Of a stretch of 64,000 nt of DNA, positions 20,222-37,292 are shown piece after piece. Under the pieces are notes generated by a model that was not told where the DNA came from, ran no database searches, and was given only the letters and a program-made list of their open reading frames with translations. The stretch's first letter is position 1. Each line of letters starts with the position of its first letter. The translations under genes were made by a program, and so were the position numbers. Origin of the DNA: an uncultured bacterium (lineage in GTDB: Bacteria > Verrucomicrobiota > Kiritimatiellia > PWTM01). The stretch is taken from contig CALLFZ010000008.1 in assembly GCA_938010045.1 (NCBI GenBank), forward strand, positions 1-64,000, written 5' to 3'.

Positions 20222-20926
20222 ATGTTCGGGCGCCGCCCGTACCGTGATCTCGAGCGCGCCCTCGGGTACCGCTTCCGTCGTGTCGAGCTGCTCGAGGCCG
20301 CGCTGACGCATCCCTCCTACCGCCACGAGACGCCGGGAGTGGCCTCGGACAATCAACGCCTCGAGTTTCTCGGCGACGCGGTGCTCTCCCTGCTGACCTC
20401 GGCATGGCTCTACGCACGCCATCCGGAGATGTCGGAGGGCGATCTGACGCGTCGTCGCGCTCAGCTAACCCGTTCGGCGGCCTTGGAGGCGCTGGGTCGC
20501 CACCTCGGGCTCGGCGCGCTGCTGCGGCTCGGGCGCGGCGAGCTCAACTCCGGCGGCCGCGAGCGCAGTAAAATTCTCGAGGATGCCGCAGAAGCCCTGA
20601 TCGGTGCGGTATTTGTGGATGGCGGCATGAAGGGCGCCCAGATGGTCTTCCAAAAGTGTGTACTGCCCTGTCTCACCGCGGCGCCGGATCCGGCACGGTG
20701 GGACAATCCCAAGGGCGCGCTGCTGGAGTGGTCGCAGGCACATGGGTTTTCGCCGCCGGTGTACCGCGTCGTCGAGGAACGCGGTCCGATGCACTCACGT
20801 GAGTTCACGGTGGAGGTCGCTGTGAACGGAGAGCCGATGGGACGGGGCATCGGACGCAGCAAGAAAACAGCCGAACGCGAGGCCGCGCTCAATGCGCTCA
20901 GCCGGATCTCCGCCGGCGCACCGTGA
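20222..20926 (+). CDS. rnc: Ribonuclease III
   Basis: Cleaves double-stranded RNA in rRNA processing and antisense decay. The 234-residue protein has the endonuclease domain with the diagnostic QRLEFLGDAVLSLL, the second acidic cluster in ILEDAAEALIGAVFVDGG, and a C-terminal dsRNA-binding domain (NPKGALLEWSQAHGFSPPVY to KKTAEREAALNAL). MFGRRPYRD is taken as the start since the upstream part of the ORF lacks similarity to the family. The gene is alone on its strand and diverges from the methyltransferase. Confidence 0.93.
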   Translation: MFGRRPYRDLERALGYRFRRVELLEAALTHPSYRHETPGVASDNQRLEFLGDAVLSLLTSAWLYARHPEMSEGDLTRRRAQLTRSAALEALGRHLGLGALLRLGRGELNSGGRERSKILEDAAEALIGAVFVDGGMKGAQMVFQKCVLPCLTAAPDPARWDNPKGALLEWSQAHGFSPPVYRVVEERGPMHSREFTVEVAVNGEPMGRGIGRSKKTAEREAALNALSRISAGAP

Positions 20927-21056: not shown

Positions 21057-21103
21057 GTCCCAACCTTGGACCGGTCACGACGTGGCGTGTCCCTACCTTG
21101 GAC
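21057..21103. repeat. Paired 15-bp dyad element, copy 1
   Basis: Two imperfect dyads, GTCCCAACCTTGGAC (21057-21071) and GTCCCTACCTTGGAC (21089-21103), have centres 32 bp apart. They lie in the 354-bp spacer between convergent rnc and the RbsD-like gene. The same architecture occurs at 36816-36862 and, more degenerate, at 60318-60362. The rest of the spacer (20927-21280) shows no gene. Confidence 0.65.
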
Positions 21104-21280: not shown

Positions 21281-21670
21281 TCAGGCCGACTGCAGGATCA
21301 TGTTCGCGTACTGGACGGTGTCCGCCGTGCGAATCAGACCGACCGCGAACGGCACGCGCCGCTTGAACTCGACGTGCGGCTCGTACTCGACCGGCAAGCC
21401 CGCCAGCGCCTCCTCGAACCGGGCCCGCACGGAGTCCGTATTTTCTCGCAAGAACTCCTCGGCCATCCAGACGCGTCCGATCACAACCACCGGCCGGATT
21501 GCCCGCAGAACATCCAGCACGGTCGGGATGTTGTCCACCAGCGAAAGATCCACGGTTTCGATTTGAGGCCAGAACGGGAAGCCGCGGTCGGCGATCACGA
21601 GAGTGTTGGTGTGGCGCACGCGCGCCAACAGCGAGAGCACCGCCGGGTTCAAAATACCGGTGCGCAGCAT
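21281..21670 (-). CDS. RbsD/FucU-family sugar mutarotase-like protein
   Basis: RbsD-type proteins interconvert pyranose and furanose or anomeric forms of ribose or fucose. The 129-residue protein covers the whole family: LNPAVLSLLARVRHTNTLVIADRGFPFWPQIETVDLSLVDNIPTVLDVL aligns with RbsD, keeping the His of the GHTD-type motif (here RHTN), and the end PFAVGLIRTADTVQYANMIL matches the conserved Y-A-N-I-L tail. In a rhamnose-degrading bacterium a deoxysugar role is plausible, but no sugar kinase or transporter adjoins it. It follows the Gly-rich gene by 30 bp. Confidence 0.8.
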   Translation of the reverse strand: MLRTGILNPAVLSLLARVRHTNTLVIADRGFPFWPQIETVDLSLVDNIPTVLDVLRAIRPVVVIGRVWMAEEFLRENTDSVRARFEEALAGLPVEYEPHVEFKRRVPFAVGLIRTADTVQYANMILQSA

Positions 21671-36815: not shown

Positions 36816-36862
36816 GTCCAACGATTGGACCTGCCCCGTGGGCGGCCGTCCAATCCTTGGAC
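36816..36862. repeat. Paired 15-bp dyad element, copy 2
   Basis: Two perfect dyads, GTCCAA-CGA-TTGGAC (36816-36830) and GTCCAA-TCC-TTGGAC (36848-36862), have centres 32 bp apart. They lie in the 408-bp spacer between the alcohol dehydrogenase and the znu operon, about 130 bp upstream of the latter. The remaining spacer (36585-36815 and 36863-36957) shows no gene. Confidence 0.75.
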
Positions 36863-36992: not shown

Positions 36993-37292
36993 ATGGCGCG
37001 TTCCCGTCCATCGGCCGAAGTGATCACTTTCAAGGCAGAACCGAAGCTGGCCCAGGCGCTGCGCGCGATTCCCAACCGTTCGAGCTTCATCCGCGGCGCG
37101 CTGCTGCACGCTTTGGATCACGTGTGCCCGCTCTGCGGCGGCAGCGGCGTCTTTACGCCGGCCCAGCGCGCGCACTGGCGCGAACTCGAGGCCTCACACT
37201 CGCTCGAGGAATGCCGCGACTGCCACGCGGTGCACCTCGTGTGCCGCGCCTCCGCAGGTGGCGCACGCCGCCGACGAAAGGTGCACCCATGA
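36993..37292 (+). CDS. Ribbon-helix-helix protein with Cys/His cluster, candidate zinc regulator
   Basis: A 99-residue protein. The N-terminal half (VITFKAEPKLAQALRAIPNRSSFIRGALLHAL) looks like a CopG/NikR-type ribbon-helix-helix DNA-binding domain. The C-terminal half has Cys45 and Cys48 (CPLC), His61, His70, Cys74, Cys77 and His78 (CRDCH), His81 and Cys84, suited to binding zinc. It is the first gene of the operon and its stop overlaps the znuA start (ATGA). By analogy with NikR, an RHH nickel sensor, I infer a zinc-responsive regulator of the transporter. There is no clear ribosome-binding site; the leader may be very short. No homologue search was possible. Confidence 0.7.
   Translation: MARSRPSAEVITFKAEPKLAQALRAIPNRSSFIRGALLHALDHVCPLCGGSGVFTPAQRAHWRELEASHSLEECRDCHAVHLVCRASAGGARRRRKVHP

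Follow-up and report, generated by a model that had tools for sequence, protein, structure and literature searches.

Helically phased palindrome pairs between genes in Kiritimatiellae: probable protein-binding sites with a possible architectural role

A pair of short palindromes, set three turns of the DNA helix apart, is repeated many times in the genome of an uncultured bacterium of the class Kiritimatiellae and in many of its relatives, mainly in the gaps between genes and whatever the direction of those genes. Judged from the sequences, the pair is very probably a binding site on double-stranded DNA that is maintained by selection. There is about an even chance that its main use is architectural, with the sites serving as boundaries along the chromosome; this reading rests on their placement, their even spacing and the lack of a functional theme among the neighbouring genes.

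The paired palindromes and their copies in the genome

The window, which is the whole stretch of 64,000 nucleotides that was analysed, contains two arrays (Table 1). The original prediction held that two dyads 32 bp apart lie between convergent genes and repeat an arrangement seen at 36816. Both sites are present, the centre-to-centre distance is 32 bp in both pairs, and the genes for ribonuclease III and for the RbsD/FucU family protein do converge on the first pair, leaving a gap of 354 bp. This junction contains no T-run hairpin except for two minus-strand ones within the end of rnc. The other array is the best of the window, with two dyads of perfect consensus; it is situated between an ADH gene and a small ORF, both on the plus strand, and is followed by a znuA-like gene. 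The translation of the small ORF, which begins at 36993, about 130 bp after the array, resembles a ribbon-helix-helix protein. Scored by a weighted scan over the entire window, the two pairs reached 42.0 and 37.0; the best of 40 shuffles scored 33.0 and no other pair scored above it, and 32 was the sole outlier among the spacings.

Table 1. Features of the two palindrome arrays in the window and of the genes beside the first
Feature	Position	Strand	Basis or remark
Left dyad GTCCCAACCTTGGAC	21057-21071	.	Consensus GTCCAA-N3-TTGGAC, weighted scan
17-bp linker	21072-21088	.	Length fixed, sequence not conserved
Right dyad GTCCCTACCTTGGAC	21089-21103	.	32 bp from left dyad, weighted scan
rnc, ribonuclease III, left neighbour	20222-20926	+	Pfam Ribonucleas_3_3 and dsrm
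RbsD/FucU family gene, right neighbour, convergent with rnc	21281-21670	-	Pfam PF05025
Second array: GTCCAACGATTGGAC (36816-36830), 17 bp, GTCCAATCCTTGGAC (36848-36862)	36816-36862	.	

A common right-hand half had also been pointed out, and TTGGAC is indeed found in all four dyads; the left halves are GTCCCA in GTCCCAACCTTGGAC, GTCCCT in GTCCCTACCTTGGAC, and GTCCAA in both GTCCAACGATTGGAC and GTCCAATCCTTGGAC. This feature proved to be minor, since the true consensus is the full palindrome GTCCAA-N3-TTGGAC, with 15 bp per dyad. The commonest arm variant is a GTCCC left half (A to C at position 5), which is tolerated.

How frequent is the pair outside the window? Across the 3.2-Mb assembly that contains it, a pattern for the whole pair (20 positions, at most three mismatches) has 93 forward and 99 reverse matches, and the reversed control has none on either strand. 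The single-dyad pattern GTCC-N5-TTGGAC (10 positions) occurs 81 and 78 times by strand, against 9 and 4 times for the reversed pattern; among the matches listed, close neighbours are all exactly 32 bp apart. The arrays are pairs and sometimes groups of three or four dyads. Their central triplets vary freely, and the 17-bp linkers are unrelated between copies.

Conservation of the dyads

Junctions or genes of this genome were matched with their orthologues in G001 or in G003, the latter a member of the same genus. Of the 16 pairs that could be compared, 13 have dyad arms with 83-100% identity; the remaining three involve junctions at which the genome of the window has one intact dyad only. The linkers of most orthologous copies are 24-47% identical and the intergenic flanks 26-39%, which is near random. 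The full pair is not kept at two orthologous junctions (L099-L114 and L100-L111), and three intragenic arrays are retained as well (L046, in three species, L049, and L087). The first of these lies within a C-methyltransferase gene (L046:3001-3047, L123, and L139), where the dyads stay and the triplets and linker change. The idea of one element family with a fixed spacing has thus held up: both the dyads and their spacing are conserved amid linkers and intergenic flanks that are unrelated, and the fixed step recurs throughout the genome and the class. It was to be refuted if flanks and spacing both proved unrelated, and the constant spacing goes against this.

Are the dyads read as DNA or as RNA? 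Each could fold in a transcript into a 6-bp stem with a 3-nt loop, so that a pair would give two hairpins 17 nt apart, and an examination of RNA secondary structure had been suggested at the outset. A hairpin or terminator was expected to show compensatory or G-U changes in its stem. However, the stem changes in 115 dyads of the genome include 85 one-sided ones, 8 of which are G-T, and not a single compensatory pair; the 234 dyads examined in G089, an array-dense genome of the class, likewise show none. One-sided, uncompensated changes argue for double-stranded DNA sites that are read half by half. Moreover, divergent junctions are also occupied, the steps between dyads (31-33 bp and occasionally 21 bp) follow the DNA helix, and an Rfam search gave no match other than a tRNA. 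The probability that the pair is an RNA element is therefore negligible.

Placement relative to genes

Genes were called with a simple home-made program, so that starts and small genes are uncertain. In the genome of the window, where coding sequence makes up about 87% of the DNA, 42 of 64 sites are nevertheless intergenic; 10 of these lie in convergent, 6 in divergent, and 26 in tandem junctions. Predicted genes contain about a third of the arrays. The 50 proteins encoded beside the arrays, or by genes that contain them, have no common function. The suspicion that the convergent site is unlikely to be a simple promoter operator is in keeping with this distribution over all three kinds of junction and, in some cases, genes themselves.

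Placement was also followed in G089, from which 396 kb of unselected sequence were examined (stretches L189-L228 of a 6.7-Mb genome). This sample contains 108 arrays, or one per 3.7 kb (93 pairs, 9 triples, and 6 quadruples), only 9 of which are inside predicted genes; the array consensus is TTTCCAATSATTGGAAA. Among intergenic regions of at least 60 bp, arrays occupy 14 of 20 convergent (70%), 18 of 35 divergent (51%), and 56 of 128 tandem ones (44%), and occupancy grows with the intergenic room available. The arrays tend to follow stop codons closely (median about 30 bp). In tandem junctions the upstream stop is nearer than the next start, and in divergent junctions about 60-110 bp separate the array from each start. 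Arrays are also spaced more evenly than a random choice of intergenic regions would place them (CV 0.64 vs. 0.85 +/- 0.09, 3/1000). Terminator-like hairpins are somewhat rarer at non-divergent junctions with an array (9/70) than at those without (19/78), which is a weak difference.

The ends of the G089 linkers are rich in A/T and their middles in G/C, a composition to be expected of DNA that is bent or wrapped. Some of these linkers resemble one another more than expected, a partial excess. The same sample includes perfect 39-bp tandem repeats with the palindrome GCCGGTCGGTGACCGGC (L189:1272-1350), which are unrelated to the arrays.

Distribution in the class and change of the half-site

When one genome per species was scanned for the exact pattern, the sole match was the single-cell genome SCGC AH-151-A22, a member of the Kiritimatiellaeota from a deep aquifer (PMC6424206). 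Its contigs match those of G003, and on this identity the class searched is taken to be Kiritimatiellae. A looser pattern (TCCA-N5-TGGA twice, at a 32-bp step) matched 102 of 240 genomes of this class, with essentially no control matches; elsewhere in the phylum there are 0-2 pairs per genome, which is the level of chance. The number of pairs per genome is 60-121 in most of the window's own family (33 in G004), 194-546 in genus g11 of family f6, and 1,711 in G089. Some genomes of the class contain 3-10 pairs only.

The half-site itself differs between lineages. The own genus has GTCCAA, and other families have TTCCAA with family-specific outer bases; TTCCAT is found in G032, G062, and G030, and TTCCGA in family f18. 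The last of these was first met in G037 by a de novo scan for two dyads sharing one half-site, in which the half-site was left unspecified, and six genomes of the family (G025, G037, G048, G057, G065, and G074) have 28-82 such pairs each. The same scan gave nothing convincing in stretches of G016, G018, G027, and G033. Given the same architecture in f18, further families that seem to lack arrays may have half-sites outside those searched.

Despite these changes the step stays at 31-33 bp across lineages and is 32 in most genomes. It is 32 or 33 in G089, and four-dyad arrays in G013 have steps of 31/32/31. In G212 (L208), 21-bp steps, which correspond to two helix turns, adjoin steps of 31 and 32 bp. 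The 31/32/31 series and the occasional 21 bp indicate that the spacing follows the DNA helix in whole turns.

Viral contigs contained no match to the own GTCCAA form and one match to the TTCCAA form, and a phage origin was rejected on this basis. The one match is an array on a 26.5-kb IMG/VR contig (L279:7669-7715), possibly from a virus of this class.

What is the function of the arrays?

The element is best pictured as a paired operator on double-stranded DNA, made up of two, sometimes three or four, palindromic sites of 15 bp. Each site would bind one protein dimer. The three helical turns between sites would place the dimers on one face of the helix, where they could join into a tetramer or a larger oligomer. 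Elements kept by selection in the gaps between genes, whatever the gene direction, would allow an abundant nucleoid-type protein to mark and separate neighbouring transcription units, and the array would then be a topological or transcriptional boundary and not a gene switch. As a whole, this account of a paired operator with an architectural use has, in our estimate, roughly one chance in two of being correct.

The same paired sites could instead be the operators of one large but ordinary regulon, in which a global regulator, for example of the feast/famine type, activates or represses the neighbouring genes. Cooperative regulators such as NrdR and Lrp typically use paired dyads in helical phase (PMC12051234, PMC10201364), the frequent arrays in divergent junctions lie about 60-110 bp from each start, and the genomes with the fewest pairs would fit a small regulon. 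A promoter operator does not explain the convergent junctions, however, since these have no promoter and yet are the most often occupied; nor would it be expected nearer to the upstream stop in tandem junctions, beside genes with no common theme, or in as many copies as G089 contains. A conventional regulon is thus a doubtful explanation, though a serious one. The position just after stop codons and the high occupancy of convergent junctions could also mean that the bound protein is a roadblock, that is, a transcription terminator or a barrier to read-through, and the near absence of T-run hairpins from the rnc/rbsD junction agrees with this. The rarity of hairpins beside arrays points the same way, but the anticorrelation is weak, and a terminator does not explain the arrays in about half of the divergent junctions, where none is needed. 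Roadblock termination is accordingly unlikely.

Could the arrays be selfish repeats of the REP kind, that is, dispersed palindromes spread by a transposase such as RAYT? They are extragenic palindromes of lineage-specific sequence, their number varies widely (0 to 1,711), and G089 has a partial excess of similar linkers. On the other hand, no Y1_Tnp/RAYT gene is present in G000-G003 and G005, which have 72-108 pairs, and the dyads are conserved amid linkers and flanks that are unrelated between copies in one genome and between orthologous copies. On these two grounds a mobile repeat fails; it is largely refuted for the own genus and very improbable overall. A boundary or nucleoid role, by contrast, would explain both the convergent and the divergent placement as well as the conserved dyads in randomised surroundings.

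A wider proposal is that these arrays form a code of chromosome architecture throughout the Kiritimatiellae: an abundant oligomeric protein would sit on phased palindrome pairs at the boundaries of transcription units, distributed evenly over the chromosome and acting as an insulator system, and protein and sites would change specificity together with the architecture fixed. This is a tentative idea, which we consider somewhat more likely to be wrong than right. If it is correct, the arrays would be the bacterial equivalent of boundary elements, directly recognisable in the sequence, with one type of site marking up to half of the gene junctions regardless of direction. The class, which has few cultured members, would provide genomes that range naturally from a few sites to 1,711 and that represent at least four half-site specificities, so that one could study how a global DNA-binding protein and all of its sites evolve together. 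Annotators would also learn what these repeats are and which class of protein to seek.

Which protein binds the arrays?

The best candidate is the class's own Lrp/AsnC protein, which most members of the class have, although its identification as the binder is itself only tentative. This ortholog is specific to the class and combines a helix-turn-helix (HTH) with a RAM domain; its best PDB relatives are FL11/PH1519 and Lrp, and its structure model is of moderate confidence (pLDDT 73, pTM 0.50). By tallies made by hand from tables, it is encoded in 71 of 74 array-bearing genomes (65 of 68 with at least five TCCA pairs and all six with TCCGA), and the three genomes in which it is missing are 59-89% complete. 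Families f2 and f37 have neither the ortholog nor arrays, and many genomes with the ortholog have no arrays of the half-sites searched. An array does not regularly adjoin the Lrp gene, and autoregulation is thus unsupported.

The Lrp/AsnC protein may have changed its specificity from lineage to lineage in step with the sites. The recognition helix is VRRRI in all three TCCAT genomes, which belong to two families, and VAAQI in TCCGA genomes. This pattern was seen post hoc and is confounded by descent, and VRRRI also occurs in G020 and G027, where no arrays were detected; for these reasons the assignment is held below an even chance. The helix varies even among GTCCAA genomes. In an alignment of the protein (A1), most invariant columns belong to the RAM half, with more variation in the DNA-binding half, which is consistent with a drifting specificity.

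Two other regulators were considered and rejected. LexA was tried as an autoregulated binder; an array is present at lexA in G000 and absent there in other f1 genomes. Genomes of every half-site type have a single, canonical NrdR, as do array-free genomes, and the arrays are not restricted to the promoters of ribonucleotide reductase genes and nrdR.

Comparison with known systems

Like REP, BIME, and REPIN sequences, the arrays are extragenic, palindromic, present in many copies and often placed just after genes; unlike them, they have no transposase in the own genus and no copied linkers, and they consist of helically phased direct pairs with orthologous conservation. The sites of matS, Noc, and SlmA are single palindromes that occur in tens per genome across the chromosome and serve its architecture rather than gene control. 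The present arrays resemble them in being many palindrome copies spread over the chromosome, but are paired at a fixed step, reach 1,711 per genome, and are concentrated between genes.

A geometrical parallel is the NrdR box pair, in which a spacer of 15-16 bp separates two boxes of 16 bp, with three turns between centres and both boxes needed (PMC12051234). The arrays share the two boxes and the three-turn spacing, yet NrdR controls only the ribonucleotide reductase genes and itself, whereas the genes beside the arrays are unrelated and the pairs number up to 1,711.

The geometry also matches that of operators of the Lrp/AsnC family (BarR, FL11, and E. coli Lrp), where semipalindromic sites of 15 bp (or 13 bp) stand several in a row. 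BarR, which is of the Lrp type, binds 15-bp sites with spacers of 15-17 bp (PMC10201364), FL11 acts globally on about 200 transcription units (PMC2995911), and proteins of the family wrap DNA on octamers (PMC10201364, PMC2995911). The dyads of the window's genome are 15-bp semipalindromes with a short central spacer, conserved arms and a free triplet. Steps of 31-33 bp leave 16-18 bp between 15-bp sites, in line with the spacers of such operators (15-17 or 27-29 bp), and a protein with HTH and RAM domains is encoded in nearly all array-bearing genomes. The arrays differ from known Lrp/AsnC operators in that their spacing is nearly invariant, most are pairs, they number up to 1,711 per genome and are blind to gene direction, and their binder is putative. 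A literature search, with most subscription journals outside its reach, found no published description of such arrays. Paired, phased operators are already known; to our knowledge, their occurrence in hundreds to 1,711 copies at gene junctions of any orientation, with a half-site that changes lineage by lineage, is new.
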